Below are positions 7,118 to 44,974 of a DNA stretch of 64,000 bases, piece after piece. Every line of letters begins with the position of its first letter. The stretch's first letter is position 1. Origin of the DNA: an uncultured Colwellia sp. Lineage in GTDB: Bacteria; Pseudomonadota; Gammaproteobacteria; Enterobacterales; Alteromonadaceae. Under the pieces are notes generated by a model. It searched no databases. It was not told the origin of the DNA and worked only from the letters and a program-made list of their open reading frames with translations. The stretch spans positions 186,001-250,000 of the forward strand of contig CAJXQI010000001.1 of assembly GCA_913058395.1 (NCBI GenBank). The letters run 5' to 3'. Made by a program: the position numbers and the translations under genes.

Positions 7118-7124
7118 TTCTACG

Positions 7125-7517
7125 ATGAAGATACTTATTCAGTCATTCAGCCTAAGTTTGCTGCAACTATCAACAATGATACAAGCAGCGAATAACCCTA
7201 TGATTGAATCTTTTAGCATTTTGCCAAGTATTTGTGTTGTTGCCCGAGAGAATAGTTGCGAGCAAGATATCCGTTTTCAATGGCGATTGAGCCATGCTAG
7301 TAATAGCTGTTTGTTTCTTGTTGGTGAAGAAAAAGCGTTATATTGCAGCGATATGCAACAGCTAACCTCGATTGTTCTCACGTTAAATGTTCAGAAAGAA
7401 AATGAATTCATTTTACGGTTAGGAGCATCAAATAAAGAAATGCGACGTCAACTTAAAGTACGAGAATTGGGTAAAGATGTTCGACAATCTCGTCGACATT
7501 TATGGAGTGTATTTTAA
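7125..7517 (+). CDS. DUF3019-type exported protein
   Basis: A 130-residue small protein; the ATG at 7125 is preferred over an upstream TTG because it starts directly with a signal-peptide-like MKILIQSFSLSLLQL. The mature part has four cysteines spaced C-x7-C-x16-C-x11-C and a basic tail ending RRHLWSVF. Its paralogue at 43696-44139 shares nearly the same cysteine spacing and tail, so two disulfides in a small periplasmic beta-sandwich are likely. I recognise this as the DUF3019 family; its function is unknown. Its stop codon overlaps the next start (TAATG), so translation is coupled to the response regulator. That suggests an accessory role in the sensory circuit. Confidence 0.75.
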   Translation: MKILIQSFSLSLLQLSTMIQAANNPMIESFSILPSICVVARENSCEQDIRFQWRLSHASNSCLFLVGEEKALYCSDMQQLTSIVLTLNVQKENEFILRLGASNKEMRRQLKVRELGKDVRQSRRHLWSVF

Positions 7518-8236: not shown

Positions 8237-8239
8237 CCC

Positions 8240-9526
8240 TTGTTTAAAGCTTTCATTAAACATTATTTACTGATTGTTATTGGTATTGTTTCGAGCATTC
8301 TAATTGCAGATTATTGGTATAACAAAAGTAATGCCGTACAAGCTCCTCAGCCATTAACTGTCAACCATATTATACCGTTAGTGAAACAATACTGCTTACT
8401 ACAAGATTGTATAAGTAAGAAAATTCCATTAACGATACCTAGTGTGTTAGTCGAAAAACAGCACATCATGTTTCCCACTGAGCAAAAGCAAAAGCTGATA
8501 TCGGGAGCTGTTATTTCCGTTCATGATGTAGATGATGGTAATTATTTTTATGTCAATTATGATGAAAAATATTACCTACAACTTGGACCAAGTAAACTTG
8601 AGCCGCAACAAAATGGTGGCTTTTATACCACGCTATTTTACGTATTATTAGCGGCAGCATTATTTTTAGGTTTCTATCCATTATTTAGAGATATGGGACG
8701 GCTAAGTGACGTAGTAAGAAAGTTCGAATTAAAGCAAAACCTTAACGCCAGTGACTTTCCTGATTCTGCCTATTTTCAGCAAATATTTTCTGCCATTAGA
8801 GAAATGCTTGAAAAAATTGGCCGACTTGTCGCTTTGCAAAAAGAATTATCGAATACCTTATCGCACGAAGTTAGGACTAGTTTGTCGAGTGCTAAGTTTA
8901 CCTTGTCGGCGCTAAATGATGAAAATTATCAGCAAATGAAACCATTACTTGATGGTGATATTTGTGATATTGAACGACTAGTACAAGAGTACTTAAGTTT
9001 TTCAAAACAAGAACATCAATGTCCCTCTTTAGCATTGTCAGCACAATCACCTATTGCCATTATTGATGAGTATGTTGAAAAGTTGCTAAGATTTTCCGAT
9101 AAGAAAGTTACCCTGACTAAGCAAACTAATGCCACAGCCCTGATTGACTATCGTTACTTTTCACGAGTGATGAAAAATTTAATTGATAATGCACTTAAAC
9201 ATGCCGACAGCGAAATAGTTATTACGGTACGGGAAGAGCGAGAGTCGTTAATTTTACAAATTGAAGATGATGGTCGTGGCTTAAAAAGCGAAAAACTTGA
9301 AGATTTATTCTTACCATTTAACCGTGAACATGATGAAGTCGCGGGCTATGGTTTGGGTTTAGCTATTGCTAAAAAAATTGTTGATTGGCATCACGGAGAA
9401 ATTACGGCGGCTAACAGCACTCAACTTTCAGGGGCAAAATTTACCGTTAAGTTACCATGTTGTGACCCTGATAATGACAAAGTTTATAACCAATCAATTG
9501 ACCAACTTAGTCATGCTAAAAAATAA
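8240..9526 (+). CDS. membrane sensor histidine kinase
   Basis: A 428-residue inner-membrane kinase starting at TTG, 3 bp after the regulator gene. One membrane segment near residues 8-25 and a second near 130-150 (TLFYVLLAAALFLGFYPLF) enclose a ~100-residue periplasmic sensor containing two Cys (YCLLQDC). The H-box is SHEVRTSLSSAKF, with Ser where most EnvZ-like kinases have Pro. ATP-binding motifs follow (NLIDNALKHA, EDDGRG, GYGLGLAIAKKIV). It is expected to phosphorylate the adjacent OmpR-type regulator. The Cys pair in the sensor and the Cys-rich DUF3019 neighbour make a thiol, metal or envelope signal conceivable, but the ligand is unknown. Confidence 0.9.
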   Translation: MFKAFIKHYLLIVIGIVSSILIADYWYNKSNAVQAPQPLTVNHIIPLVKQYCLLQDCISKKIPLTIPSVLVEKQHIMFPTEQKQKLISGAVISVHDVDDGNYFYVNYDEKYYLQLGPSKLEPQQNGGFYTTLFYVLLAAALFLGFYPLFRDMGRLSDVVRKFELKQNLNASDFPDSAYFQQIFSAIREMLEKIGRLVALQKELSNTLSHEVRTSLSSAKFTLSALNDENYQQMKPLLDGDICDIERLVQEYLSFSKQEHQCPSLALSAQSPIAIIDEYVEKLLRFSDKKVTLTKQTNATALIDYRYFSRVMKNLIDNALKHADSEIVITVREERESLILQIEDDGRGLKSEKLEDLFLPFNREHDEVAGYGLGLAIAKKIVDWHHGEITAANSTQLSGAKFTVKLPCCDPDNDKVYNQSIDQLSHAKK

Positions 9527-20481: not shown

Positions 20482-21020
20482 TTTGTCGGTTATAAAGGGT
20501 GATTATTTTAGTCCTTTAGTATGACGACAATTTATCAGTTTATAGCAATCGATTGATTCAAATAGTTTTTATGACATTGCGTTATATGCGAGATAAAAAT
20601 AAACCTTGCTATTTTGCCCTAGCTGTCGATAATCGCGCCAATAATTAAATAATGTCATATTCAAATACACTTTTTTAGCATGCTTTAAAGTCGCTAAATT
20701 AGTGAGGCTGGGAATGTGGTGAAAATCCACAACTGTACCCGCAACTGTAAACAGAGCGATATATTAACCACTAAGTTTTGCGCCAAAATAACTTGGGAAG
20801 GGATATATCTAGACGCTGTAAGTCAGGATACCAGATGAATATAGTCATTAATTGCGACGTCGAGCGGGTTACTCGAGCATTGATTACTGTAATTAAATTT
20901 GTGGTGAAGTCACAGATGAAAACAGTTTTGCTTCCCTAAAAACCTCAATATTATCGACGTTAATCATAATAGTTTGACCCACTAATTGTTTAATTAGCGT
21001 GGTCTTGTTTAGGTGATGTC
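20482..21020 (+). promoter_or_regulatory. leader region of the cobT operon
   Basis: This 539-bp gap between cobC and cobT contains the riboswitch aptamer, its presumed promoter upstream of 20657, and an expression platform (20843-21020) with short GC-rich inverted segments (CGAGCGGGTTACTCGAG). No coding region is seen. Confidence 0.6.
20657..20842 (+). ncRNA. cobalamin riboswitch 1 (cobT operon)
   Basis: The B12-box core is present: GGGAATG, the TGTGG/CCACA stem, ACTGTACCCGCAACTGTAA, then GGGAAGG and the terminal AGTCAGGATACC. ATATTCA (20657-20663) and TGAATAT (20836-20842) form the closing P1 helix. It lies 178 bp before cobT and should repress the cobT-cobS-cobU-cobQ operon when adenosylcobalamin binds, by transcription termination or by blocking translation. 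No clear terminator hairpin with a U-tract is seen between it and cobT, so translational control is more likely. Confidence 0.93.
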
Positions 21021-25057: not shown

Positions 25058-25156
25058 GTGACTAATGGAAATACGAATCAAATATTCTATTAGCAGTATC
25101 AAGATAAAAAGAATCTAAACTAGCGACAGTAATTACAAATTTTAATTACTGTTTTA

Positions 25157-25275
25157 TACAGTAAGTTCGAGGGAAGAAGATGAGATTTCTTCACTGCCCC
25201 CGCAACGGTAATCATTGTTATGCATGTCATAACAATGTCAGTCCGAGCACTTGAGCTTGCTTAATTCACACTGTA
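25157..25275 (+). ncRNA. cobalamin riboswitch 2 (btuB)
   Basis: The core is GGGAAGAAGATG followed by the canonical ACTGCCCCCGCAACGGTAA (25192-25210) and CAGTCCGAGCAC. TACAGT (25157-25162) and ACTGTA (25270-25275) form a P1 helix. The usual GGTG...CC element is GATG...TC here, but GAAGA (25176-25180) still pairs with TCTTC (25188-25192), so the helix is kept by compensating changes. It precedes btuB by 48 bp. The GAGGT ribosome-binding site (25315-25319) lies in the expression platform, suggesting translational control. Confidence 0.9.
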
Positions 25276-30116: not shown

Positions 30117-30735
30117 TGCTCAACTCTATAGGTTTTCAGGTATTAATTGGCTGTGGAGAATAACTAAATCGTTAACTTGATTCAATGCAAATTTACTTTC
30201 TATTGAGCATTGTCTTTTTAACAAAAAATATAATTAGTACTTTAGTTGTATATATTGTTAATTGTTGAATAACTCTCTTGCATGGCGTAACATCAACGCC
30301 GATTTAGGTGTCTTCAGCGGTCAATTTATGGTGATAAAATTTATCCGATAAATACCAACTAATGAAGATGAAACGTGAAACTGGTGAAATACCAGTACTG
30401 CCCCCGCAACGGTAACTGTGAGCAGCAACAAAACCACTGTATTGATAAATATGGGAAGGTGTTGCAAGTGCGATGATCAGGAGTCCGGAGACCGGCCTAA
30501 ATTATATTTATTGCTAGCAAGCTATTTAGCGCAATTATCAATAGGTATTACTCGACAACTGCGGTGGGCGGTAATTCAGAGAACAGTATACGGTCTGAGT
30601 TATATTTCCACGATCGCTTGATGTATTAAATGCGTTATTTTAACGCTTCAACTATTCATTTTGCGAGCACACCGTTTACCTACTTTGATTTCCTACACCG
30701 TTAATATTCTATCTATTTTAGACAGCGGAATCGTT
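30117..30735 (+). promoter_or_regulatory. divergent leader region, cbiB operon / btuM operon
   Basis: This 619-bp region lies between the divergent phosphatase and btuM genes. It contains cobalamin riboswitch 3 (30303-30503), presumed promoters for both directions in the AT-rich stretch 30120-30290, and about 230 bp of expression platform after the aptamer. A short open stretch from 30661 in frame with btuM lacks an ATG before 30736 and is not taken as coding. No riboswitch is seen on the minus strand. Confidence 0.6.
30303..30503 (+). ncRNA. cobalamin riboswitch 3 (btuM-cbiA-cobN operon)
   Basis: Canonical features: the ACTGGT/ACCAGT helix followed by ACTGCCCCCGCAACGGTAA, then GGGAAGGTG, GATGATCAGGAGTCCGGAGAC. 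TTTAGG (30303-30308) pairs with CCTAAA (30496-30501) and CGGTC with GACCG, closing the aptamer. It lies upstream of a six-gene operon ending with btuR. No U-rich terminator is evident between it and btuM. Confidence 0.94.
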
Positions 30736-31341
30736 ATGAAATCAGTCAATCAAAAGTCACCTATCAGTTTGCTTGCTGCAGTATTTGCAATATTAAGCTT
30801 TCTTATGCTTGCTACACGCACGCATCATTTTGCCAGCTTAAATCACTTACCTAGCGCTTCAATCGCAATATTTTTCTTAGCCGGTATGTATTTACGCAAT
30901 ATGAAAGCGTTTTGGTTTTTCTATACCTTAACTTTAGTGATTGATCTTGCTTCATCGTATTTTCGTGGACAATTCGGCGACTGCATAACTACCTCGTATC
31001 CTGCACTAGTCTTGAGCTATGCCGCTATGTTTACTGCAGGCTACTATACTCGCCCTAATTGGCAGCAAAGCGCCTGGCAAAACAATATTATTAAAGTTGC
31101 TTTAGGCTTGTTTGTTGCTAGCTCAATTGCCTTTTTCATTTCCAATGGCAGTTATTATGCTTTGTCAGGAAAATTCCCAGAATTATCATGGGCTGAATAT
31201 GCAACGCGTGTTGATAAGTATTATTTCCGCTCTATTTCTAATCCGGTATTTTATGTGATTTCTGCGATAGTTATTGATTTCACTATTAGTCGTTTCTTGA
31301 CTGATAAAGGCTTAGCAAAATCGCCACAAGATAAGGTGTAA
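30736..31341 (+). CDS. btuM: probable BtuM-type solitary B12 transporter
   Basis: A 201-residue membrane protein with about six hydrophobic helices (near 10-27, 37-54, 57-76, 88-106, 118-138, 168-186). The ATG at 30736 is chosen over an upstream TTG. It resembles BtuM, an ECF S-component-like protein of Gram-negative bacteria that moves cobalamin across the inner membrane without an ECF ATPase module. Cys83, in GDCITTSYPALVLSYAAM, lies where BtuM has its cobalt-liganding Cys (Cys80 in the studied protein). The preceding riboswitch supports a B12 role, and no btuCD is seen here. The alternative is a riboswitch-controlled cobalt transporter. Confidence 0.72.
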   Translation: MKSVNQKSPISLLAAVFAILSFLMLATRTHHFASLNHLPSASIAIFFLAGMYLRNMKAFWFFYTLTLVIDLASSYFRGQFGDCITTSYPALVLSYAAMFTAGYYTRPNWQQSAWQNNIIKVALGLFVASSIAFFISNGSYYALSGKFPELSWAEYATRVDKYYFRSISNPVFYVISAIVIDFTISRFLTDKGLAKSPQDKV

Positions 31342-32783
31342 TGACAATGAGTCAGTCAGAAACAGCAAAAGCGACAGCCGCTTTTCAGCACAAGCCTGAA
31401 CAAGAAAGTGGCAGCGGCACTATGTGTTCTGCATTAATTGTTGCTGCACCGCATTCAGGCTCTGGGAAAACAACAGTAACGGCATCGCTTGCGCGTTATC
31501 ACCGCAATCAAGGACGAAAGGTAACTGTATTTAAAGTCGGACCTGACTTCATTGATCCTATGATCTTACGAAAAGCCAGTGGTGAATTGGTTTATCAGCT
31601 TGATTTATGGCTGGTTGGCGAACAAGGCTGCCAAGCGCTATTGCATCGTGCAGCTATGGAATCTGATCTTATCTTGATTGAAGGTGTGATGGGCTTGTTC
31701 GATGGCACACCAAGTAGTGCTGATTTAGCGCAATATTTTAATATTCCTGTACTTGGTGTTATTGATGCAAAAGCCATGGCACAAACCTTTGCTGCGGTGA
31801 CTTTTGGTTTAGCGAAGTTTCGTGAAAACTTACCGTTTTCTGGTGTTATGGCTAATCGTGTTAATACCGAGCGCCATGCAGAATTACTTAGTAGTAGCTT
31901 GCCTGAAGAGTTCTGTTTTTATGGCCGAATACCAAAAGATGACAGCATCACCTTGCCTGAACGTCATTTAGGTTTGGTTCAAGCGCAAGAGCTAGCTGAT
32001 ATTGATACTCAACTTGACCAAGCTGCTAGCCATATCGCCAATACCGGCTTGGTTGATTTACCTGAAAAAGTAGAGTTTTTCGCTGTTGAAGCCAACGCTA
32101 ATGAATATGAAGATCAAAAAAGCTTTATTGATCGTGCCTTAGTGGGTACCAGAGTCATCATTGTTCGTGATAATGCTTTTAGTTTTATTTATGCCGCTAA
32201 TATTGCCTTTTTAGAGCAAGCTGGCGCCGAAATAACTTATTGCTCAGCGCTTAATGACGCTCATTTGCCTGAAGGCGATATTCTATATATTCCTGGTGGT
32301 TATCCAGAATTATATGCGGAGCAGTTAATGAGCAATATTACTTTCTTAAGTGACGTTAAAGACTTTGCTGCTAGTAATAAACCTATCATTGCTGAATGTG
32401 GCGGTATGTTGTATTTACTTGAGCAACTGACTGATATGTCGGGGAAAAAGTTACCTATGCTTGGCCTTATGCCTGGTCAAGCGACAATGCAGAAAAAGCT
32501 GGCTTCAATAGGTTCACAATGGGTTGATTTGTCACCATTTGAGCAAAACATCTCGAGTAATAATGATGACGCGTGTGAAAATATTATGCGTGGTCATAGT
32601 TTTCATTACTCGCGTGCGGAAATTGCGCTTGAACCCATTTGCCAAACTACACATCACCCAAGCGAAAGAGCAGGCGAATTTGTTTATCAACATAACAATA
32701 TTCTAGCCTCATACATGCACTGGTATTTTCCGAGTAATCCAGGTTTAACATTACGTATTTTTAATAAGGCGCGTTGCTTCTAA
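31341..32783 (+). CDS. cbiA: cobyrinate a,c-diamide synthase
   Basis: A 480-residue cytoplasmic amidotransferase amidating the a and c carboxylates of cobyrinic (or hydrogenobyrinic) acid. The N-terminal domain has IVAAPHSGSGKTTVTASLAR and VFKVGPDFIDP; EGVMGLFDG follows. The C-terminal glutaminase domain has YIPGGYPELYAEQL, IIAECGGMLYL with the nucleophilic Cys, and RGHSFHYSR. The first ~30 residues are a non-conserved tail. The ATG overlaps the btuM stop (TAATG). Its presence without corrin-ring genes in the window implies use of scavenged incompletely amidated corrinoids, or ring genes elsewhere. Also called cobB. Confidence 0.94.
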   Translation: MTMSQSETAKATAAFQHKPEQESGSGTMCSALIVAAPHSGSGKTTVTASLARYHRNQGRKVTVFKVGPDFIDPMILRKASGELVYQLDLWLVGEQGCQALLHRAAMESDLILIEGVMGLFDGTPSSADLAQYFNIPVLGVIDAKAMAQTFAAVTFGLAKFRENLPFSGVMANRVNTERHAELLSSSLPEEFCFYGRIPKDDSITLPERHLGLVQAQELADIDTQLDQAASHIANTGLVDLPEKVEFFAVEANANEYEDQKSFIDRALVGTRVIIVRDNAFSFIYAANIAFLEQAGAEITYCSALNDAHLPEGDILYIPGGYPELYAEQLMSNITFLSDVKDFAASNKPIIAECGGMLYLLEQLTDMSGKKLPMLGLMPGQATMQKKLASIGSQWVDLSPFEQNISSNNDDACENIMRGHSFHYSRAEIALEPICQTTHHPSERAGEFVYQHNNILASYMHWYFPSNPGLTLRIFNKARCF

Positions 32784-32853: not shown

Positions 32854-35800
32854 ATGAGAGTTTTCATGACAAGTTTTATTTGTAGCAATCAAGCTATAAA
32901 GCCTTTTATCAGCGTATCGAAAGGTCGTAGTAACACCTATCTTGCTTTAACATTATTTATTGCGTTTTTTATTAGTAGCTTTACGCTAAATGCAGCAGAA
33001 ACTAAGATGTTAGCCTTAGTGTCAGACCGTTCCGCCGCGAGTATGGTAGCAGGCGCACATCAGTTTTTAGCAACACATGAAACAGCTAAAAGCAGTATTA
33101 CTATTCGTAGTGTTAGCCAACTCAATCAATTAACTAACAATCAAATACAGCAACTCATTAATCAACATCAAGCATTGGTCATTGCCGGAGTTTTTGGTGA
33201 ATCTGTCGAGCGTTTACTTACCTTAAAATATCAAGCTCAACAAACGCGGCTAATATTGAATGCCGATAGGCGCTTAATGGTTTTACACCATGATAAACAA
33301 GGCGGGCGAATTGCTGATTTATCTAAAGAACAATTATTAGACTTGATGTCAGCACTCGATAAAAACAATTACTTATCTGCATTATCGAATAAGCAGCAAC
33401 AATGGCGACAATTTTCTTATTGGCTACAAGCCCGTGCTTATTGGCAAAACAGAGGTAAGGAAAATTTGGGGCATTTGTTTGAGTGGTTGCAACAAATATC
33501 AAGCCCTCAACTTAGTAACGACAGTAATATTTTATTAGCCCAAGCACCGAAAATTTTACCACTCCAACCAATACGTTTTTATTGGCAAGAGCAACTGATC
33601 AGTCAGGCTGATTTAGCGAGTAATATTGCTAAAAACATAGCTAAGCCAGTGGTATTTATTGTCGATCACGATACCGGCGACCAACCGGGACAATGGCAAT
33701 TACATCAGCAATTATGTCAGCGCCAATGGCAATGCGTTTCTGTGCTTGCAGGTTGGGGAAAACCCAGTGAGCAAGCAATTGAGATCATTCGCAGTCTCAA
33801 CGTTACCCAGCCATTAGCCATTATCGCTTTACAAGACTTTGTGATTGGTGGCGGTGAAGGGCGCGAGCCGGTTACGCAGAAGTTTCAGCAATTGAACGTG
33901 CCGGTATTTAAAGGCATTCGAGTAACCGAAATGAGTGCGTTGGAATATCAACTTTCACCAACAGGTTTACCGAGTGATAGTGTGCATTACCGTGTTGCTA
34001 TGCCTGAGTTACAAGGTGTTTCACAGCCGCATGTATTGGCGTTAGCCTCAGCAGCTAAGCTAGACTCATTAACCGGTGCAAGCTTATCGATTAGTGAAGT
34101 ATTAACAAAAGAAGTTGAACGACTACAAGTGCGAGTAACTGCTTGGTTAGCGCTGCGCACCACTGAAAACGCGAAGAAAAAAGTCGCTATTGTTTATTAT
34201 AATCATCCTCCGGGTCGCCATAATATCGGAGCCGATAACCTCGATGTTCAACAATCGCTTTGGCAAATATTAGAGCAATTAAAAGCGCAAGGTTATAACC
34301 TTGGTGCTGAAGCTGACTTCCCTAATTCTGCTGAAGAACTGCTGGATATATTACAACTGAAAGCGGTGAACTTGCCGCAAGATGCCGCAGCGCTCAATAA
34401 AATGTCGCCGCTGATCAATAAAATGTCGGTAAGTGACTACCAAGCGTATTTCGACACCTTACCTGATGTTGTAAAGGCTGAAATGATTGAAGGGCCGTTA
34501 GGGCATTTACATGCTCAAGTTAACATTTACCTATTTGCTCAAGGTCAAACGGAATTAGCGCAACTTTCAACGGTTGAGCGCAATAAGGTTTTACAAGCAC
34601 TGCTGGCCAATGTTGAAAGTACCTCGGTTGATTTACATCACGCCCTTGATGGTATTCGACACAAAGGGCGCGCCCGCGCGTTAGATTTACTTGAACAGCT
34701 AACCGAGCAATATCGCCATTTAATTGCCTTAAAACAGGCAAATAGCGAGATTGCAGTTACACAATGGCAGTCAGCAGAAAAACTGAAAAATGCGCTAATT
34801 GCCATGCAAATTGAAGGCATTCGAGGTTGGGGCAATGTGCCGGGGAAAACCATGGTTTGGAATAATGAAATTCTATTACCCGGTGTTCAGTTCGGAAATG
34901 TATTTTTAGGGCCGCAGCCACCGAGAGGTTGGGAGCTAAATGAAGAGCTATTGCATGCCAATATGACCTTTCCGCCGCCGCATCAATACTTAGCGTTTTA
35001 CTATCATTTACGTGACGTTTTTAAAGCCAACGCCATAGTGCATTTAGGCCGACATTCAACCTATGAGTTTTTACCTAAACGAGCAGTGGGTTTATCAGCA
35101 AGTGATTACCCGTCGCTAATTATTGAAAGCATTCCAAGTATTTACCCCTACATTGTTGATGGCGTAGGTGAAGGTATTCAAGCTAAGCGCCGTGGTATTT
35201 CGGTGATGCTAGATCATTTAACGCCACCGTTGGCCACAACGGAGCTATATGACGGTTTATTGCAGTTACGTCAGCTCATTGAAAGTGCTGAAGCAGCATC
35301 GAATGACGATACCAAGAAAAAAGCGATTAAAGCCTTACGTCATAAAATCCAAGTGTTGAATTTAACTGATGAACTGGTTGCCAGTATGGATGAAGAACTG
35401 CAAGTTCGAGGCATTGGTTTTGGTGAAGTAGATGATGACTTTTTATTGCATGAAGTCGGGCATTATCTAACGAAACTGCAAGAAGACTTTATGCCGTTAG
35501 GTTTGCATGTTTATGGTAAAGATTGGCAACAAGATGCCATTGAAACCATGATGGTATCGATTGAAAAAGGCGAGTTAGACTTTGATGATGCGAAACGTCA
35601 TGAAATTCAACAGAACCTGATCAAATCACCGAAAAGTGAAATGTCAGCGTTTTTAAATGCTTTAAATGGCGGTTTTGTAGCGCCGGGCAAAGGTAATGAT
35701 CCGATTAGAACACCTGATGCCTTGCCAACGGGACGAAATTTTTACGCACTTGATAGTGGTTTAATACCGTCGCAGTTAGGTTTTAATACCGGTCAGCAAT

Positions 35801-37443
35801 TGGCAACTAAAGCGCGAGCAGAAAACCCCGTTGTTGATAAAACTCATAAAGAAGCCGTTATTTTATGGGCTTCTGATGCGGTGCGTGATGAAGGCGCTAT
35901 GATCGCCTTTGGTATGGATATGCTCGGCGTGCAGCCGGTGTGGAATCGACGTGGTATTTTAAAATCGCTGAAACTTATCGAGCTTGATAAAACACGTAAA
36001 GAGCGTCGAGATATTGTTTTTACCACCTCGGGCTTGTTCCGTGATTTATATGCTCAACAATTGGCGTGGTTAGATCGCTCAGTATTGCTGGCATTAGCAG
36101 CCAGTAAAAATGTTATTGAGCGTGACCATCCAGCACTTATTAGTGCTTTACATGCGGCATTAGCACCGGTTGAACATATGCTTTCGCAGCAGAGCCATCA
36201 CTTCAATGAAAACATTGAAAACAATATGGTTGCCAGTAATTGGCTACGTGAAGCGCAAGCACTTTTACGAGCAAATAGCAGCATCAGTGCTGAGCTATTA
36301 GGTCGTCAGGCAAGTTATCGAATTTTCGGTACTGCGCCTGGTGCCTATGGCGCGGGTATCAACCGTTTAGCAGAGCGCTCTGGCGCATGGCAAGAACGTA
36401 AGCAATTAGGCGAAGCGTATATCAAACGCATGAGTCATGCCTATGGTGTGCCAAATGAAAATACAGCGATGGGCAGCAATGTACAAAGCTTATTTCGTCA
36501 ACAACTTGCTAACGTAAATAACACCTATTTAGGACGCGCAAGTAATCTTTATGGCTTGATTGATAACAATGACGCTTATGATTATTTGGGTGGGTTAAAT
36601 TTAGCGATTGAAACCATTGCTGGAGAGCAACCTAATAGCTTTGTTATATCGCATGCGAACAATCAACAGTTGTCGATAGACCCTTTGCAAACCGCGTTAT
36701 TGTCAGAGTTACGCGGGCGCTTTTTAAATCGACAATGGATACAACCGCTAATGAAGCAAGGTTATGCGGGCGCAAGAACCATAGGCAGTGAGTTCATTGA
36801 AAACCTATGGGGTTGGCAAGCAACAAGCCCAGAAATTATTAAGTCTTGGGTTTGGCAGGATCTAAAAGCCATTTATATTGATGATAGTTTAGAACTTGGC
36901 CTTGATGAATTTTTACAAGAAAAGCATAACGTGCATGTGCAAAGTAATATTTTGGCGGTGATGCTTGTGGCTATTGAAAAAGGCTTTTGGCAAGCCAGCC
37001 AACAAACGCAAACCGAACTTGCTGAGCAATTTGCGAAAAATATTGTTGAACATGGCATTCCGGGCAGTGGTCATACCCATGCAAACCATCCTATTTATCC
37101 ATTCATTAAACCTATGTTGTCTGCGTCGTTGCAAAAGCAACTTGCTCAGGTGCTTGCTGCGGCAAACCACACACCTATTGGGGAACAGGGCTCTGGTGTT
37201 CAGCATATTCAAGAAATAACTGCGGCAACTAAATCGTTAAAAGCTAATGAAGTTGTACCGAACGATAGTGCGACCGCGACTGAAAAAAATAATGCGAGTC
37301 AGGATAACGAACAAGCTCAGTTATTTGAGCAGAAAATTTTAATGCTTGGGTTAATTAGTGTCGTGTTGTTGTTAATACTGTTTGGTTATATTCGAGCGCA
37401 ACGTCAGTTACCTAAATTATCGGTTGTTGAGGAGGAAAGTTAG
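32854..37443 (+). CDS. cobN: CobN-like metallochelatase, predicted periplasmic and membrane-anchored
   Basis: A 1529-residue protein of the CobN/ChlH family of large chelatase subunits, which handle metal insertion into (or removal from) tetrapyrroles. Family signatures include HLGRHSTYEFLPKRAVGLS (from His730), VMLDHLTPPL, and APGAYGAGINRLAERSG (around 1163). Unlike cytoplasmic CobN it has an N-terminal signal sequence (h-region about 29-46, cleavage near LNA-AE) and one C-terminal helix (about 1494-1513, ILMLGLISVVLLLILFGYI) followed by a basic tail, so the catalytic part should face the periplasm. No CobS/CobT-type chelatase ATPases are nearby; TolQ-like and DUF2149 genes follow instead. 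Function in B12 metabolism is inferred from riboswitch 3 and flanking cbiA/btuR. An ATG at 32866 is an alternative start. Confidence 0.88.
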   Translation: MRVFMTSFICSNQAIKPFISVSKGRSNTYLALTLFIAFFISSFTLNAAETKMLALVSDRSAASMVAGAHQFLATHETAKSSITIRSVSQLNQLTNNQIQQLINQHQALVIAGVFGESVERLLTLKYQAQQTRLILNADRRLMVLHHDKQGGRIADLSKEQLLDLMSALDKNNYLSALSNKQQQWRQFSYWLQARAYWQNRGKENLGHLFEWLQQISSPQLSNDSNILLAQAPKILPLQPIRFYWQEQLISQADLASNIAKNIAKPVVFIVDHDTGDQPGQWQLHQQLCQRQWQCVSVLAGWGKPSEQAIEIIRSLNVTQPLAIIALQDFVIGGGEGREPVTQKFQQLNVPVFKGIRVTEMSALEYQLSPTGLPSDSVHYRVAMPELQGVSQPHVLALASAAKLDSLTGASLSISEVLTKEVERLQVRVTAWLALRTTENAKKKVAIVYYNHPPGRHNIGADNLDVQQSLWQILEQLKAQGYNLGAEADFPNSAEELLDILQLKAVNLPQDAAALNKMSPLINKMSVSDYQAYFDTLPDVVKAEMIEGPLGHLHAQVNIYLFAQGQTELAQLSTVERNKVLQALLANVESTSVDLHHALDGIRHKGRARALDLLEQLTEQYRHLIALKQANSEIAVTQWQSAEKLKNALIAMQIEGIRGWGNVPGKTMVWNNEILLPGVQFGNVFLGPQPPRGWELNEELLHANMTFPPPHQYLAFYYHLRDVFKANAIVHLGRHSTYEFLPKRAVGLSASDYPSLIIESIPSIYPYIVDGVGEGIQAKRRGISVMLDHLTPPLATTELYDGLLQLRQLIESAEAASNDDTKKKAIKALRHKIQVLNLTDELVASMDEELQVRGIGFGEVDDDFLLHEVGHYLTKLQEDFMPLGLHVYGKDWQQDAIETMMVSIEKGELDFDDAKRHEIQQNLIKSPKSEMSAFLNALNGGFVAPGKGNDPIRTPDALPTGRNFYALDSGLIPSQLGFNTGQQLATKARAENPVVDKTHKEAVILWASDAVRDEGAMIAFGMDMLGVQPVWNRRGILKSLKLIELDKTRKERRDIVFTTSGLFRDLYAQQLAWLDRSVLLALAASKNVIERDHPALISALHAALAPVEHMLSQQSHHFNENIENNMVASNWLREAQALLRANSSISAELLGRQASYRIFGTAPGAYGAGINRLAERSGAWQERKQLGEAYIKRMSHAYGVPNENTAMGSNVQSLFRQQLANVNNTYLGRASNLYGLIDNNDAYDYLGGLNLAIETIAGEQPNSFVISHANNQQLSIDPLQTALLSELRGRFLNRQWIQPLMKQGYAGARTIGSEFIENLWGWQATSPEIIKSWVWQDLKAIYIDDSLELGLDEFLQEKHNVHVQSNILAVMLVAIEKGFWQASQQTQTELAEQFAKNIVEHGIPGSGHTHANHPIYPFIKPMLSASLQKQLAQVLAAANHTPIGEQGSGVQHIQEITAATKSLKANEVVPNDSATATEKNNASQDNEQAQLFEQKILMLGLISVVLLLILFGYIRAQRQLPKLSVVEEES

Positions 37444-37444
37444 T

Positions 37445-37954
37445 ATGTTATATAGTTTTTCATTAGATATTATGCATTTAATTACCTCTTGGTTGCTTCA
37501 ACCTGTGGTATGGGGCTTATTGTTTTTTACTGGCTTGGCAATTTATGAATTTGGCTTAGCGTTAGGTGAACGGCTTTCGGTGATACCTGCTTTACAAGCA
37601 GCAAAGCAAAAGCAAGCCTTGATCAGCCAAGGTAAAAAACGCATTGAAAGAGCGGATTTTATTACCCGCATTGCGCCTATGTTAGGTTTAATGGGCACGC
37701 TTATTCCGTTAGGTCCTGGCCTTTCTGCGCTTGGCTCGGGTGATATCAGTATTTTGACAACTGCGATGACAGTGGCATTTGATACCACCATTATTGGCTT
37801 ATTCGCCGGTGTTATTGGTTTCGTATTGGGACGAATGCGCAGACGTTGGTACGACAATGCGATTGGTGAATTAGAGCGATTAGAAATTGCAGAATCTGTT
37901 ACCGATACTGCTAAACTAACGCCAGTTGTTGATACCTCAATCAAAACGGCATAA
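37445..37954 (+). CDS. MotA/TolQ/ExbB-like proton channel subunit
   Basis: A 169-residue inner-membrane protein with three hydrophobic segments (about 18-40, 73-95, 103-129). The FITRIAPMLGLMGTLIPLGPG and TTAMTVAFDTTIIGLFAGVIG segments are the conserved TolQ/ExbB/MotA helices that form the proton path. It starts at the ATG at 37445, one base after the cobN stop, behind a strong GAGGAGG site. TolQ/ExbB proteins form pentamers around a TolR/ExbD dimer and convert proton flow to movement. Together with the next gene it could energise the CobN-like protein. It is shorter than TolQ, lacking a long C-terminal cytoplasmic region. Confidence 0.85.
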   Translation: MLYSFSLDIMHLITSWLLQPVVWGLLFFTGLAIYEFGLALGERLSVIPALQAAKQKQALISQGKKRIERADFITRIAPMLGLMGTLIPLGPGLSALGSGDISILTTAMTVAFDTTIIGLFAGVIGFVLGRMRRRWYDNAIGELERLEIAESVTDTAKLTPVVDTSIKTA

Positions 37955-37963
37955 GGAAAGCTG

Positions 37964-38293
37964 ATGAGTGATGCATGGAGAAGTAGCCAGTTTGACAATC
38001 AAGAACAAGAGCCGTTAGGGCCGCTTGCTAACTTAATTGACATTATGCTGGTGTTTGCCTGTGGTTTAATTGCCGCTTTGGTGGCGGTAAGCCCAGATTT
38101 AGAGCAACACTTTCAAATGAAAAAAGTGGATAATAAAGCCATGATTCAGCCCATTGACTCGGTGGGCAAAGAAATGACCTCGCCACCAGAAACATTGCAA
38201 AACAAATTACAGAGCGAAGAAGGTTATCAAGCCATGGGACAGGTTTATCGCGACCCAGAAACAGGTAAACTGATCTTAATTAGTAACGAATAA
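37964..38293 (+). CDS. DUF2149 membrane protein, ExbD/TolR-like
   Basis: A 109-residue protein with one hydrophobic helix (about 21-42, LANLIDIMLVFACGLIAALV) and a C-terminal portion predicted outside the membrane, including QVYRDPETGKLILI. The helix contains Asp26 in NLIDIMLV, matching the position of the essential Asp in ExbD/TolR helices (typically PLVDVMLVLL). I assign it to DUF2149, a family often linked to CobN-like genes and TolQ-like genes. It begins 9 bp after the TolQ-like gene. Probable role: the proton-binding stator partner of that protein. No TonB-like protein is encoded next to it. Confidence 0.75.
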   Translation: MSDAWRSSQFDNQEQEPLGPLANLIDIMLVFACGLIAALVAVSPDLEQHFQMKKVDNKAMIQPIDSVGKEMTSPPETLQNKLQSEEGYQAMGQVYRDPETGKLILISNE

Positions 38294-38305: not shown

Positions 38306-38923
38306 ATGAATAACGAAGAGAAATTGGCAAATAAAGAACAAAAACATGTTGAGCGCCAAAAAAGAATTAAAGCTGAGGTTGCCGAACGTGTCGCTCAAGC
38401 GACTGAAGAACGTGGTGTATTAGTGGTAATAACAGGTAACGGTAAGGGCAAAAGTACCTCTGGTTTTGGTACGGTTTTACGCGCCATTGGTCACGGCCAA
38501 CAAGCGGGTATTGTGCAGTTTATCAAAGGCTCTAAATGGGAATGTGGCGAAATGAACATTCTTAAGCAATTTCCGGTTAAACATCATGTCATGGGTACAG
38601 GTTTTACATGGGAAACCCAAAGCACCGAAACCGACAAAGCCGCAGCAAAAGTTGCTTGGCAAAAGAGTAAAGAAATGCTCAGCGATGAAACGCTTGATAT
38701 TGTGCTACTCGACGAAATGACCTACATGGTTAAGTATGGCTACATTGAATTAGACGAAATTATTGAAGCGTTGAATAATCGCCCTAAAATGCAGCATGTA
38801 CTGATCACAGGGCGCGCTTGTCATCGTCGATTGATTGAGTTGGCAGATACAGTTTCAGAAGTGCAGCCGATAAAGCATGCCTTTAAAGCAGGTGTAAAAG
38901 CACAAAAAGGCTTGGATTGGTAA
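38306..38923 (+). CDS. btuR: corrinoid adenosyltransferase (CobA/CobO/BtuR type)
   Basis: A 205-residue cytoplasmic enzyme adding the 5'-deoxyadenosyl group to Co(I) corrinoids using ATP. Characteristic motifs: VVITGNGKGKSTSGFGTVLR (P-loop), VQFIKGSKWECGE, LLDEMTYMVKYGY and LITGRACHRRLIELADTVSE. Last gene of the operon under riboswitch 3, starting 12 bp after the DUF2149 gene. Its position supports a corrinoid rather than haem role for the preceding CobN-like unit. Confidence 0.96.
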   Translation: MNNEEKLANKEQKHVERQKRIKAEVAERVAQATEERGVLVVITGNGKGKSTSGFGTVLRAIGHGQQAGIVQFIKGSKWECGEMNILKQFPVKHHVMGTGFTWETQSTETDKAAAKVAWQKSKEMLSDETLDIVLLDEMTYMVKYGYIELDEIIEALNNRPKMQHVLITGRACHRRLIELADTVSEVQPIKHAFKAGVKAQKGLDW

Positions 38924-41600: not shown

Positions 41601-42962
41601 CTAAGCTTCACCTCCTGTTATCGGCAAGCTAATAATAAAGCAAGCGCCTGATGTTTCAGAGGTTGTTTGCTCTGATGCATTTTCTGTTGATGGGGTAGGC
41701 TGCCTGTTTCTTGCGTGAATAGAACCATTGTGCCAATGAATGATTTTGGCGGTTATTGCTAAGCCTAAACCAAAATGTCCTAGTTCGCGTGACCGATCTA
41801 CGTCGAGTTTTACGAAAGGGTCGAAAATACTATCGATACTTTCTTCTGGAATACCTTTGCCGTCATCTTCAACGGTGATGTAAAGGTGGTTATTTTTTTG
41901 ATAAGTAGAAATAGTGACTTGGCTTTGTGCATATTGCACGGCGTTGCCTAACAAGTTTTGAATAGCTCGGTAGCACCAATGAAAATCAAGCGACAATTTA
42001 ACCTGTTGTTTAACAAATTCAGCACTGGCTTGGTACTTCAGTTCAACGTTATGCTGCTCAGCAAGAGATTGAAAATCAGCGTTGATGCTAGTGAAGAAGT
42101 CATTAATATTAACTAATTCACGTTTTAAGCGAAAACCTTGACGTTCCATACCTGCATATTCTAAAAACGCTGTTGTCATGTCTTCCATGCGGGTTAACTC
42201 TGTTTCCATACGTTCAAGGTAATGATTTTTTTTGTCGATATTTTGGGTGTCGATAGCGGCTTCTACGCCAAAGCGTAAGCATGACATTGGCGTGCGAATG
42301 TCATGCGACATACTACGGGCAAGAATTTTGTTATCAGCGACGAGTTTTTCAATTTGTGTTGCCATGCGGTTAAAGCTGTTTTCCAACAAACTAATATATG
42401 AAAAACGGCTCATTGGCATACGCGCAGTTAAGTTGCCTGCACCTATTTTTGCTGCGGTATTTGTCAGTAAAAATAATCGACGAGTTAATGGAAATAACCA
42501 TGCTAACAAAATGGCGCAAACGCCCATGTAGAGTGTTGCAGTTAATATCATATTAATATTTTGGTTATCAACAACTGGCAGTGGTAGAGAAAGTTGAATG
42601 ATATATTCAGGGTGTGCTGAAAGTTGTTTTAATAAGTAAGGTTGCGTTTCTGAAGCCAGTAATAAGCCACCAATTTGTGTTAGTTGGCTGGTTAATTCTT
42701 GCGGTAGGGCAATATTTTCACTTTTATCTAACTGCAATGAAATTTGAAACTGCTGGTTAAGTGCTTGGCTTGCTTTGGTTAATGCGGCAACAGGTAGTTC
42801 GGATAGCTGATGATCAAAGCCTTCAATTAGCTGATGATAAACCGCATATTCATTTTGTTCATCGACAGGGGCTTGTTTTGCAACAATTTTATCGAGCCCC
42901 CAAGTAATAATAAATAGCGAGCCGATGACGGTTAAAATGATACTAATATATAAACGGCGCAT
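41601..42962 (-). CDS. membrane sensor histidine kinase (second module)
   Basis: A 453-residue kinase with two membrane helices (about 7-27 and 135-158) enclosing a ~105-residue periplasmic domain, then HAMP (about 160-210), an H-box ARSMSHDIRTPMSCLRF, an N-box IQNLLGNAVQYA and ATP-lid motifs EDDGKGIPEE and GHFGLGLAITAKII. It is 2 bp downstream of the regulator gene. It is similar in layout to RstB/EnvZ-like kinases and has an intact Pro in the H-box, unlike its counterpart at 8240-9526. Expected to control the linked OmpR-type regulator and the MipA/DUF3019 genes. Confidence 0.92.
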   Translation of the reverse strand: MRRLYISIILTVIGSLFIITWGLDKIVAKQAPVDEQNEYAVYHQLIEGFDHQLSELPVAALTKASQALNQQFQISLQLDKSENIALPQELTSQLTQIGGLLLASETQPYLLKQLSAHPEYIIQLSLPLPVVDNQNINMILTATLYMGVCAILLAWLFPLTRRLFLLTNTAAKIGAGNLTARMPMSRFSYISLLENSFNRMATQIEKLVADNKILARSMSHDIRTPMSCLRFGVEAAIDTQNIDKKNHYLERMETELTRMEDMTTAFLEYAGMERQGFRLKRELVNINDFFTSINADFQSLAEQHNVELKYQASAEFVKQQVKLSLDFHWCYRAIQNLLGNAVQYAQSQVTISTYQKNNHLYITVEDDGKGIPEESIDSIFDPFVKLDVDRSRELGHFGLGLAITAKIIHWHNGSIHARNRQPTPSTENASEQTTSETSGACFIISLPITGGEA

Positions 42963-42964
42963 GG

Positions 42965-43684
42965 CTAAGAACTAGGCTGCTCGTCATTGTTCCAAGCATC
43001 GGCAACAAATAGGTAACCTTTACCCCAAACGGTTTTAAATTTTCGAGGTTTTTGCGGGTCGTCGTTAAATATTTTTCGTAAGGTTGAAAGCATAACGTCA
43101 AAGCGGCGATCTTGGCCATCATATTCACGATTTTTCAGTGCTTTAAATACCGTATCTCGGTCAATAACTTCACCAGCATGACTTGCTAAGAAACATAAGA
43201 AGGCGAATAAACTGGTTGATAATTCAACTTCTTTGCCTTGATAAGTAACACGGTTGGCTTCGATATTAATTAATAAATCGCCATGTAGAATATCAGATGA
43301 CACTGCAACCGCTGGTGTGGTTTGTTTTAAAGCGCCTGCTATTCTGGCTAGTAAAGCACGCGGACGTACAGGTTTAATAACATAGTCGTTTGCACCTGCT
43401 TCTAAGCCGATTACTTCGTCGAATTCATCAGCACGAGCGGTTAACATTATGATTGGCGTTTGTAGTTTTTGGCGAATTTGTCGACATACTTCAATGCCAT
43501 TTAAGCCCGGTAGCATTACGTCAAGCAATACAATGTCGGCAGCAAATGAATCTAACGTTGCCATAACTTCGTCGCCGCGAGTGCAATGCTTAACGTTAAA
43601 GCCTTGCTCTGTTAAATATTCACAGACCCAATCACCTAAGGTTAAGTCGTCTTCCACGAGTAAAATTTGTTTTGCTTCAGTCAT
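42965..43684 (-). CDS. OmpR-family response regulator (second module)
   Basis: A 239-residue receiver plus winged-helix regulator. Phospho-acceptor Asp is in ADIVLLDVMLPGLNGIEVC, Lys in NDYVIKPVRP; the effector domain contains LSTSLFAFLCFLASHAGEVI and DRRFDVMLSTLRKIF. The ATG at 43684 (MTEAKQILLVEDD) is used rather than an upstream in-frame codon; it has an AGAGAA site and avoids overlap with the DUF3019 gene. It is third in the order mipA-DUF3019-RR-HK. Confidence 0.92.
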   Translation of the reverse strand: MTEAKQILLVEDDLTLGDWVCEYLTEQGFNVKHCTRGDEVMATLDSFAADIVLLDVMLPGLNGIEVCRQIRQKLQTPIIMLTARADEFDEVIGLEAGANDYVIKPVRPRALLARIAGALKQTTPAVAVSSDILHGDLLINIEANRVTYQGKEVELSTSLFAFLCFLASHAGEVIDRDTVFKALKNREYDGQDRRFDVMLSTLRKIFNDDPQKPRKFKTVWGKGYLFVADAWNNDEQPSS

Positions 43685-43695
43685 AAAATATTCTC

Positions 43696-44139
43696 TTAAA
43701 ATATGCGCCAGCGACGTTTTCTTGGCGATGCTTTGTGTACCCAACTTACTTCGATGCTAGTTTCTGCTATCACTTTATCAAAGTCATAGGCAATAAGCTG
43801 ATATTGCATGGTTTTATTTGATTCGAATTCAAAGCTGATGCTGTTTTGCTTTTGATTGAACCAGCAGTCTAAGGCTTCTTTTTTACCAACTTGATAAATA
43901 CAATAATTGCCTTGAATAGGAGCTTGCCAAGTAAATGTAACTGTTGCAAAACATTGTCGGCCTTGCGTTAAGGTAATGCATTTTGCAGGTAAAACAGAGA
44001 ATGCTGAATTAACAGTAAGTTCTGCTGGTGTAGCATTGGTGTTTTCATTAAGCACAGAAACTTGCTGCGCAGAAGCGCTAGCTAAGTTACCGAAATAACA
44101 GGCTAATAAGACAATTCCCTTGTCCCATTTAGAAAACAT
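43696..44139 (-). CDS. DUF3019-type exported protein (second module)
   Basis: A 147-residue protein with a signal peptide (about 1-24, ending ASA). Four cysteines are spaced C-x8-C-x16-C-x11-C, against C-x7-C-x16-C-x11-C in the paralogue at 7125-7517, and both have an F-x-W motif before the third Cys and a basic C-terminus (here RKRRWRIF). The conserved pattern points to a small disulfide-bonded beta-fold in the periplasm. Function unknown. It overlaps the MipA gene by 11 bp, implying co-translation. Confidence 0.78.
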   Translation of the reverse strand: MFSKWDKGIVLLACYFGNLASASAQQVSVLNENTNATPAELTVNSAFSVLPAKCITLTQGRQCFATVTFTWQAPIQGNYCIYQVGKKEALDCWFNQKQNSISFEFESNKTMQYQLIAYDFDKVIAETSIEVSWVHKASPRKRRWRIF

Positions 44140-44974
44140 AGATCACTCCAAGCATCACTTTCGCTAAATCTTGGGTGTCAACCAATGGGCTGTCTTTGGT
44201 GCTGTCAGAGTAGTGGCTGTAAGTTACGCCTCCGGCAAAAGACCAACTGGTTGAAATAGGGTGCTGTGCAAATAATTCTAGTTGTACCCGATAACCTGCA
44301 TTTGCTTCGTAATATGCTCTATCAGGTGTTACTTCAGAAGAGTTAACACCATAAAAGTAATCCATTACTTTTTCAGAATAATGGGTATAGCCGCCGCTTA
44401 AATAAATATCCCAATTTCGATAGGGCAGCATATACGTATATAAAACATCAACTACCCAACCATTTGAGTCACTTAATGGCGCTAAGGTTGCAAAATCAAC
44501 TGAAAGCGAAGAGTTAGAATGGTAACGGGTATAGCGCAAACCAACACCTTCACCTGCGTTTCTGTCACTAAGGCCTGCTAATGTTGGAATTGACTTATCG
44601 GCATCATCAATAATATCTTCAGGCTGATAACCAAAAATATAAGTTTTACTGATGATGTCTAATTCCCATTTGGGGGTAACGACTAACTGGTAACCAAGCT
44701 CAGCGCCCTGTAGTGAAGCTCGTTTGTGGTTAGATTGAATAAAAAAGCCTTTATAGTAAACATCTAACAGTATGCCTGCACCAAAGTAATCGAAAACTTC
44801 TTCTTGGTCATGTCCAGCCAATAATGACGGGTTATAGGTAACAAAAATATTGCCCATTGCTTGCCAGCTGAAAGTTTCATTAAAAACAGTGGTTTCGTTT
44901 TCAGGAATTTTTTCATTCGAAAAGCTTGGCAAAGCTGTAATGAGTAGCAAACTGCACAATAGATACTTGAGCAT
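44129..44974 (-). CDS. MipA/OmpV family outer-membrane protein (second module)
   Basis: A 281-residue outer-membrane beta-barrel with a signal peptide (about 1-19, ending SFS) and MipA/OmpV features: GAGILLDVYYKGFF, GLRYTRYHSN, DYFYGVNSSEVTPDRAYY and a C-terminal strand ending VMLGVIYVF with terminal Phe. First gene of the second four-gene module. Sequence identity with the copy at 6263-7117 is only moderate, so the duplication is old or the modules were acquired separately. Confidence 0.87.
   Translation of the reverse strand: MLKYLLCSLLLITALPSFSNEKIPENETTVFNETFSWQAMGNIFVTYNPSLLAGHDQEEVFDYFGAGILLDVYYKGFFIQSNHKRASLQGAELGYQLVVTPKWELDIISKTYIFGYQPEDIIDDADKSIPTLAGLSDRNAGEGVGLRYTRYHSNSSLSVDFATLAPLSDSNGWVVDVLYTYMLPYRNWDIYLSGGYTHYSEKVMDYFYGVNSSEVTPDRAYYEANAGYRVQLELFAQHPISTSWSFAGGVTYSHYSDSTKDSPLVDTQDLAKVMLGVIYVF

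Follow-up and report, generated by a model that had tools for sequence, protein, structure and literature searches.

The window analysed here, a stretch of 64,000 nucleotides from an uncultured Colwellia species, contains a forward-strand operon in which the genes run btuM–cbiA–cobN-like–tolQ-like–DUF2149–btuR under a cobalamin riboswitch at its head (30301..30503, +; Rfam RF00174, 95.2 bits). The btuM gene (30736..31341, +) would encode a solitary S-component-type B12 importer of 201 residues counted from its ATG; phmmer matches it to PDB entry 8c7p (E 2.9e-18), and its single cysteine, Cys83, aligns with a cysteine of that chain. We take this entry, titled 'Cobalamin ABC transporter', to be BtuM from its title and length. 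The cbiA/cobB gene for cobyrinate (hydrogenobyrinate) a,c-diamide synthase follows at 31341..32783 (+; NCBIfam NF002204, 426.6 bits, cut-off 254), and btuR, for corrinoid adenosyltransferase, lies at 38306..38923 (+; NF004637, 279 bits, cut-off 185). Between them is a trio of genes for a CobN-like class I chelatase of 1529 residues (32854..37443, +; PF02514, 779 bits), a TolQ/ExbB-like proton-channel protein of 169 residues from its ATG (37445..37954, +; PF01618, 38.3 bits; a longer reading frame starts from TTG at 37382) and a DUF2149 protein of 109 residues with one membrane helix (37964..38293, +; PF09919, 48.4 bits). The ATG of the tolQ-like gene is one base past the stop codon of the CobN-like gene and has GAGGAGG upstream. 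Our profile searches recovered all three genes at the coordinates given in a preliminary description of this DNA, and together with RF00174 they agree with its placing of the trio between cbiA and btuR under a cobalamin riboswitch, and of the tolQ-like start (37445) one base after the CobN-like end (37443).

PF02514 extends over most of the CobN-like protein, which carries the histidine of the class I chelatase superfamily within the motif HLGRHST (residues 730–736, His734 being the second histidine) and a further motif, NNDAYDYLGG, at 1238–1247. Its best match among solved structures is HmuS (9d26, E 4e-103), with ChlH/CobN structures also matched, and its scores against the NCBIfam CobN/ChlH equivalog models are all under the cut-offs. 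In our tree it falls in a clade of its own, here called B12-type, apart from the CobN proteins of the other trio clade, and the equivalent of HmuS His538 (His734 in the window protein) is kept in 21/21 B12-type rows. The tree and motif table leave out G049/L044 (CobN frame interrupted), L060 (CobN and btuR split), L101 (contig starts inside CobN), the fragments L091 and L092, and five near-identical Colwellia copies (L054, L055, L056, L058, L059). By hydropathy, and unlike four classical controls of the soluble cytoplasmic CobN(ST) kind with neither signal nor membrane helix, the window protein has an N-terminal signal-like segment at about 28–47 (Kyte-Doolittle 1.90) and a C-terminal hydrophobic helix at about 1495–1513 (2.88) followed by a basic tail. 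An N-terminal hydrophobic segment and a C-terminal helix are found in 20/21 B12-type and 16/16 other trio-type CobN proteins, whereas the helix and a clear signal are missing from 4/4 classical CobN/ChlH controls; these calls rest on hydropathy rather than signal-peptide prediction, and the weakest B12-type N-terminal value (1.32) is near the top control (1.28). The signal peptide, tailed helix and envelope location that the preliminary description had proposed are thus supported, as is a catalytic body that probably faces the periplasm.

The two smaller proteins resemble a proton motor. The TolQ-like protein has Thr85 in TM3 and Thr114/Thr115 in TM4, and these threonines and its PF01618 score (38 bits, over 22.9) place it with the stator A proteins (TolQ/ExbB/MotA). 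The TM3 threonine is present in 34/34 aligned rows and that of TM4 in 20/20 B12-type rows (24/34 overall), the position being valine in the other 10/34, every one outside the B12-type. The DUF2149 protein has a short C-terminal part with a conserved VYRDPETGKLI stretch at its end, and its single helix holds Asp26, which alignment confirms to be at the ExbD/TolR position, as had been stated; the 34 aligned rows (one ExbD included) have 33 Asp and one Glu there. Alignment to three ExbD-like sequences with hhalign gave a weak match (probability 18.8%, E 0.0013) over 19 columns, confined to the helix. The suggestion of a proton-motor pair is further strengthened by the company these genes keep: in our class survey a TolQ-like gene stands beside 21/21 DUF2149 loci over the cut-off (separated from it by some 670 bases in L104), and a CobN-like gene or fragment lies within 5 kb of 21/21. 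These 21 include both loci of the window genome and leave out L108 (G439), an ordinary ExbB/ExbD pair under the DUF2149 cut-off. In the motor tree the 18 B12-type rows group as a single clade, and across them distances correlate with those of CobN (r 0.92 for TolQ, 0.88 for DUF2149). We note that plain vertical descent can also yield correlations of this kind. A CobN encoded on a Marinobacter plasmid has neither the C-terminal helix nor an adjoining motor; no motor was found in 28 kb around it, and no DUF2149 in a plasmid-wide search whose query, from the other clade, could miss the B12-type.

A trio of this sort does not by itself mean B12, since haem, zinc and perhaps nickel systems have similar ones and the window genome has a second (G000:C19), whose neighbours are genes for a TonB-dependent receptor and a member of the HmuY family. 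We therefore rejected the trio as such as a B12 marker; in Runella it lies in a hydrogenase hyp cluster. By the preliminary description's own standard, relatives that hold the trio but no B12 genes would speak against its reading, and the wider trio does so occur (the second set, the Runella hyp cluster, hmu operons and the Zur-regulated PA1922-25), but the B12-type clade keeps its riboswitches. A cobalamin riboswitch match lies upstream of the trio or its gene run in 18/18 B12-type loci scanned upstream, 13 over the Rfam cut-off and five below it (22-30 bits), all five within about 180 bases of CobN, against 0/10 C19-type (other-clade) loci, for which matches were sought solely above the gathering cut-off. 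The 18 do not count L101, which gave no match and whose CobN start is off the contig. The scan left aside L092 and took L041-L043 and L052-L059 at less than full length; for L012-L014 the flanks were short and the operon start was not reached. In six B12-type loci (G035, G084, G046, G100, G288, G401) the surrounding 10 kb or so held no B12 gene of our reference set, and each of the six has a riboswitch, or a match resembling one, immediately upstream. Within the family, CbiA is over the cut-off in 7/9 genomes with a B12-type trio (it was not found in G049 and G100) and in 13/138 others (Fisher 9e-6, uncorrected for kinship). Riboswitches and B12 genes together bear out the corrinoid role that had been suggested.

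Our search for the usual partners covered CobT, CbiX and ChlI/ChlD-type ATPases, with CobS, CbiK and CobW outside it. Neither in the whole window genome nor in the eight other B12-type genomes of its family did we find a match to CobT (TIGR01651), so that the reported absence of an AAA+ partner holds for CobT; nor did we find in these nine CbiX or the corrin-ring marker CbiC/CobH. Among 11 class genomes, the only CobT match was a sub-cut-off one in G288 (288 bits of 759), and three genomes with the trio and without CbiC have CbiX over the cut-off (G218, G285, G347).

Three further genomes (G235, G381, G267) bear on the direction of the reaction and give the strongest new evidence. All three have CbiC/CobH, and CobG scores over its curated cut-off (247, 323 and 269 bits, respectively); CobI, CobJ, CobM and CobL are found mainly in G381, with homologues in the other two. 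These genomes encode an aerobic, late-cobalt corrin pathway, and the B12-type CobN is their only PF02514 protein. CobT and CbiX were not found in them. PF17863 alone is too broad a test for ChlI/ChlD (it matches in 11/14 controls), and all five matches in these genomes were therefore examined individually, a check that was complete for these three genomes and not for the hits in the other eight; all five AAA_lid_2 proteins are AAA_3/MoxR-like, and no ChlD score, where tested, exceeds 48 bits (cut-off 500). An aerobic corrin route with a B12-type CobN as its only CobN points to cobalt insertion, and not to the cobalt removal or ring strain that the preliminary description had entertained besides insertion. 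The three genomes sit close together in the tree as one lineage, and the argument thus rests on approximately one evolutionary event. In 3/3 of them cbiD and cobG flank the genes of an ABC-2 permease/ATPase pair, and the permease had no match in nine other B12-type loci searched; that the pair exports corrin is a guess from its position, the transporter family being a common one.

The computation shows which genes are present, the fold family to which they belong, their topology signals, their shared inheritance, their control by a riboswitch and the absence of the searched-for partners; from these we infer a coupling of motor to chelatase, a direction of reaction, a substrate and an export step. 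We propose, with a probability of about 0.48, that the trio is a membrane-anchored periplasmic cobaltochelatase that is driven by TolQ/DUF2149 and inserts cobalt into metal-free corrin. The C-terminal membrane helix of CobN would dock on the TolQ-like/DUF2149 proton channel, and proton flow would take the place of the ATP with which CobS/CobT or ChlI/ChlD power conformational change in the classical enzymes. For the aerobic-route lineage this would be the late cobalt-insertion step, acting on metal-free corrin carried out by the ABC-2 transporter. The window species has no detected corrin-ring marker, and the substrate there would thus be scavenged corrinoid: the machine may act on incomplete or metal-free corrinoids entering via BtuB, and BtuM would afterwards bring the product in to CbiA, BtuR and other salvage enzymes. 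This salvage version assumes a natural supply of metal-free corrinoid. A periplasmic chelatase also sits awkwardly with CbiA, which is cytoplasmic and makes the compound on which classical CobN acts. A further point against the proposal is that purified HmuS is reported to be active alone, in an NADH-dependent manner (PMC12583661).

HmuS belongs to the HmuS-HmuT-HmuU-HmuV systems (Bacteroidota hmu operons), in which an anchored class I chelatase likewise has a periplasmic body and adjoining TolQ/ExbB-like and DUF2149 genes; the preliminary description had mentioned such trios from Bacteroidetes haem loci, and we find the same gene set in hmu operons. Given that HmuS, the nearest solved structure, is reported as a haem de-chelatase of the other trio clade (PMC12583661), the window trio might instead take the metal out of scavenged corrinoids or other tetrapyrroles, or set right a corrin that carries the wrong metal, before import, as would suit hosts in which no corrin-ring marker is found, but we consider this unlikely. 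The window CobN is in a separate clade, and its operon has a B12 riboswitch and B12 genes instead of a HmuY- or HmuT-like gene. The HmuS axial haem ligands Met79 and His254 were not found at the aligned sites, in a loose alignment anchored on the Prevotella protein and not on the numbered B. theta one; in place of the HmuS motif LSLDHxxEFMGG with His1209 the window protein has IDNNDAYDYLGG, with Asp1240 there; and the Met-rich insertion of HmuS is absent (at most 5 Met per 120 residues, compared with 30 in Prevotella HmuS). We reject membership of the haem de-chelatases (HmuS) on these residues, but they test membership more than direction, and residues alone do not distinguish insertion from removal. 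Asp at the His1209 position is common to classical CobN and most C19-type proteins, and the single ChlH row, an insertase, has His there, so this residue is no guide to direction; nor is the Met-rich insert universal, with only 9 Met in the Aureibacter hmu protein. What weighs against de-metalation is that cobalt is not known to leave a corrin undamaged, and that the aerobic genomes with a sole CobN need insertion.

The tight linkage of the trio to btuB and btuM in several loci is also consistent with a helper in transport, in which TolQ/DUF2149 would energise BtuB or pass corrinoid from BtuB to BtuM and CobN would be a non-catalytic corrinoid-binding scaffold; an EMBO J paper assigns to HmuU/HmuV the role of powering haem import through HmuR. 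We find this rather improbable, because the trio itself has no TonB-like protein, the trio of Trichlorobacter (Geobacter) lovleyi stands next to an ExbB-ExbD-TonB set distinct from it, the chelatase histidine is invariant in B12-type rows, and the sole-CobN aerobic genomes would be left without a known late cobaltochelatase. Other trios tied to zinc (the PA1922-25 Zur regulon) or lying in a hydrogenase hyp cluster raise the idea that this one works in the periplasm to free cobalt from organic chelates and so supply it, as those may do for zinc and nickel, and the T. lovleyi trio lies with two TonB-dependent receptors under tandem cobalamin riboswitches. However, with neither CbiC/CobH nor CbiX found in the window genome and the eight others of its family, there would be no evident use for free cobalt in corrins without a chelatase, and the window trio sits with BtuM, CbiA and BtuR, not with a cobalt transporter; we think cobalt scavenging quite improbable. 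Related plasmid genes are annotated as cobaltochelatase subunit CobN, yet a conventional cytoplasmic CobN whose AAA+ partners are encoded at another site of the genome is very hard to credit given the sub-cut-off equivalog scores, the signal-like segment and C-terminal helix, and the failure to find CobT in nine B12-type genomes of the family, and we rejected cytoplasmic CobNST on the last two grounds.

Should experiments bear it out, insertion of cobalt by a motor-driven periplasmic enzyme would give vitamin B12 its metal by a route that has not been described, with a proton motor replacing ATP. More tentatively, and with the odds in our estimate against it, TolQ/DUF2149 would be a fourth power source of class I chelatases, after CobS/CobT, ChlI/ChlD and frameshifted ChlD, and in at least one gammaproteobacterial lineage aerobic B12 synthesis would step outside the cytoplasm, the cell exporting metal-free corrin by ABC-2, metalating it with environmental cobalt and re-importing it. 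The need of class I chelatases for ATP has been called not fully understood (PMC7689651), and a CobN that is exported and coupled to a proton motor, without the searched-for AAA+ partners, offers a natural comparison by which the purpose of the energy could be examined. The proposal, if true, would fill a missing step in aerobic-route genomes without CobT- or ChlI/ChlD-type partners and alter the prediction of B12 auxotrophy or production from cobN annotations. It would also hint that envelope machines which use a motor to work on metal tetrapyrroles are widespread in kind, with branches for haem, zinc, nickel and cobalt.

Several known systems share parts of this arrangement. Classical CobN, with CobS/CobT or ChlI/ChlD, has a homologous body, keeps the HxGxH histidine and has Asp at the HmuS His1209 position, and the window gene, between cbiA and btuR, shares its neighbours in late cobalt insertion; unlike classical CobN, the window protein is apparently exported and anchored, has no CobT that we could find, has a motor pair attached and has GRHST in place of GxHG. 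The BtuS (CobN-like) family, which according to PMC6460266 was named by Rodionov in 2003, figures in that paper as a third kind of CobN-like protein with a predicted anchor and periplasmic location; the work itself concerned haem iron in B. fragilis, unlike the B12 setting here. PA1922-PA1925 of Pseudomonas aeruginosa, in the Zur regulon and thus under zinc control, combine CobN-like, proton-channel-like and DUF2149 genes beside a TonB-dependent receptor. The cobN cluster of T. lovleyi plasmid pSZ77 (pGLOV01) has the same type of trio, also beside a TonB-dependent receptor; its CobN was already noted to be without CobS/CobT in PMC3403914, where its role is left open, and despite the tandem cobalamin riboswitches of the T. 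lovleyi trio its CobN falls in the other clade.

The operon studied here opens with a cobalamin riboswitch on the forward strand of the window (30301-30503; Rfam match) and continues on that strand with btuM (30736-31341; match to PDB 8c7p), cbiA (31341-32783), a CobN-like gene (32854-37443; PF02514, 779 bits), a TolQ-like gene, a DUF2149 gene (37964-38293) and btuR (38306-38923), of which cbiA, the DUF2149 gene and btuR are identified by family-model matches. The preliminary description had placed the CobN-like, TolQ-like and DUF2149 genes (the trio) between cbiA and btuR under a cobalamin riboswitch, with the TolQ-like ORF one base after CobN, and both points are borne out, the TolQ-like ATG lying at 37445 and CobN ending at 37443. 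The surroundings hold further B12 salvage genes whose names were read from translations: cobD, cbiB and a phosphatase gene on the reverse strand beside the operon, and cobT, cobS, cobU and cobQ upstream of it. Also upstream is btuB (TIGR01779 match, under cut-off), and further cobalamin riboswitches precede cobT (20671-20853; Rfam) and btuB (25134-25271; 31.9 bits, barely above the 31.5 cut-off). We note that two divergent copies (25-33% identity) of a four-gene cassette, encoding an outer-membrane-like protein, a small secreted-like protein, a response regulator and a histidine kinase, flank the B12 region at 6263-9526 (+) and 41601-44974 (-).

The window CobN-like protein falls under cut-off for all NCBIfam CobN and ChlH equivalogs, and its closest solved structures are HmuS (the haem de-chelatase of hmu operons), ChlH and CobN. 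It groups, in a rapidly built tree of 41 CobN-like sequences, within a fully supported clade of 21 rows, here called B12-type; the haem, Runella and T. lovleyi trios, and the C19-type trios, named for a second set in the same genome (contig C19), all lie outside it, and the classical CobN/ChlH branch adjoins it (support 87; tree unrooted). A joined TolQ and DUF2149 tree gives the identical division, and within 18 B12-type rows the distance correlation to CobN is 0.92 for TolQ and 0.88 for DUF2149. At the level of sequence this shows that the three genes travel together; it does not imply physical contact, since shared descent by itself suffices for such correlations. Any CobN-like match occurs in 42/147 family genomes, B12-type in 9 of the 42. 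DUF2149 is found in 21/369 class genomes, above cut-off in 20, and at each of the 21 above-cut-off loci (the window's own genome contributing two) a TolQ-like gene lies alongside and a CobN-like gene, whole or fragmentary, is no more than 5 kb away, on the opposite strand in one locus (L094).

A signal-like N-terminal segment and a hydrophobic C-terminal helix followed by a basic tail, both proposed from the window sequence, are upheld by hydropathy. Of the B12-type CobN proteins, 20/21 carry the C-terminal helix (hydropathy >=1.37), as do 16/16 from other trios (>=1.51), against 0/4 classical CobN/ChlH controls (<=1.07). The N-terminal margin is narrow (B12-type rows 1.32-2.32 versus a top control of 1.28), and the N-terminal case therefore leans also on the signal-like pattern. 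By homology and the positive-inside rule, the body of the window CobN would then be periplasmic. The sole B12-type row without the C-terminal helix is a Marinobacter plasmid CobN, beside which no motor gene was found.

The preliminary description also proposed a survey of the trio's co-occurrence with B12 riboswitches, and the association held for the B12-type clade. A cobalamin riboswitch lies upstream of the B12-type trio or its gene run at 18/18 loci scanned: above the Rfam cut-off at 13 (the window, L044, L047, L060, L061, L099, L100 and L102-L107) and under it (22-30 bits), just upstream of CobN, at five (in genomes G035, G084, G100, G288 and G401). Scanned at cut-off, C19-type loci gave 0/10, the second trio of the window's own genome included. 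At the B12-type loci of G035, G084, G046, G100, G288 and G401 no reference-set B12 gene was found within ~10 kb, so that the riboswitch is their sole B12 link. The T. lovleyi trio has two tandem cobalamin riboswitches above it.

CbiC/CobH is required for ring building by either route, and it was found in 0/14 genomes, the window's own included, nine of which carry a B12-type trio. In those nine, neither the AAA+ chelatase partner CobT nor CbiX was found; CbiA is above cut-off in 7/9, versus 13/138 other genomes (Fisher 9e-6, kinship not corrected). On these gene contents, the hosts appear to live by salvage and would be capable of using early corrinoids, for instance cobyrinic acid. CbiC/CobH is present in 3/11 class genomes with a B12-type trio (G235, G381 and G267). 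These three also encode the aerobic-route precorrin-3B synthase CobG, above the curated cut-off (247, 323 and 269 bits, respectively), together with CobI, CobJ, CobM, CobL and CbiD; CobG and CbiD occur side by side in Pseudomonas genomes too. The trio CobN is the only PF02514 gene in each, searches for CobT and CbiX found neither, and their five AAA_lid_2 proteins are all MoxR-like. The simplest reading of these gene contents is that the trio acts as a late cobaltochelatase in these genomes, which count as a single lineage, as their CobN proteins form one subclade. Among the remaining eight class genomes, CbiX is above cut-off in three (G218, G285 and G347), and one (G288) has a CobT-like match under its cut-off.

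The CobN proteins of the three genomes carry signal-like segments, as in other rows. In all three aerobic cob operons, cbiD and cobG are separated by genes for an ABC-2 permease and an ATPase (L102:3789-5758; L099:3692-5382; L105:909-2584); a search of nine further B12-type loci gave no match to this permease. If CobN acts outside, the position of this pair would make it a candidate exporter bringing metal-free corrin to CobN.

Active-site residues bear on a possible HmuS-like role (HmuS residues from PMC12583661). The superfamily histidine, His538 in HmuS, is His734 in the window protein, and the GRHST variant around it occurs in 21/21 B12-type rows and in no other of the 41. Where HmuS has His1209, B12-type proteins have Asp, as do classical CobN and most C19-type proteins, and the insertase ChlH has His. 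This Asp argues against HmuS membership and is neutral on insertion, since C19-type proteins mostly have Asp and ChlH has His. Equivalents of the HmuS haem ligands Met79 and His254 were not seen in the alignment with the B12-type protein, nor was the HmuS Met-rich insert seen in the window CobN-like.

In the putative motor pair, the TolQ TM3 threonine is present in 34/34 rows and the TM4 threonine in 20/20 B12-type rows (24/34 overall, the remainder Val). An Asp at the ExbD position of DUF2149, as first proposed, is confirmed by alignment (Asp in 33/34 rows, Glu in 1/34), and the profile match of DUF2149 to ExbD is weak. No TonB-like protein is present in the trio. From the co-occurrence of the genes, the Marinobacter case that lacks helix and motor alike, and the lack of a TonB-like protein, we infer that the motor may drive CobN and not a receptor.

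Elements of this trio have been described before. Published work covers the trio-containing haem system HmuS-TUV (PMC12583661; PMC13227078), a trio type under Zur (PA1922-25; PMC4542158, PMC9431628), BtuS (PMC6460266), pSZ77 with CobN lacking CobS/CobT (PMC3403914), and CobN partner sets comprising CobS/CobT, ChlI/ChlD and a frameshifted ChlD (PMC9227772). Among the literature matches listed, with subscription papers and preprints mostly outside their scope, we found no proposal of a proton-driven or periplasmic cobaltochelatase.

The second trio of the window's own genome, which thus has two sets (contig C19, L007:8219-16713, reverse strand), lies with a TonB-dependent receptor-like gene and an HmuY-family protein (PF14064, 39.7 bits). 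On Runella slithyformis plasmid pRUNSL01 (L067, 1-11812) the trio sits within a hypF-hypCDE hydrogenase-maturation cluster, accompanied by genes for a TonB-dependent receptor and for a product annotated as urease accessory (NicO and DsbD_2 matches under cut-off), and may represent a nickel-related version of this machine. At L044:7428-11882 (G049) the B12-type CobN frame is broken into pieces of 947 and 532 aa, through decay, recoding or sequencing error, with motor genes and riboswitch present. Lastly, at L050:472-13418 (G085) a tandem pair of CobN-like genes follows a single TolQ/DUF2149 pair and a gene resembling a TonB-dependent receptor, and here two chelatases may be served by one motor.
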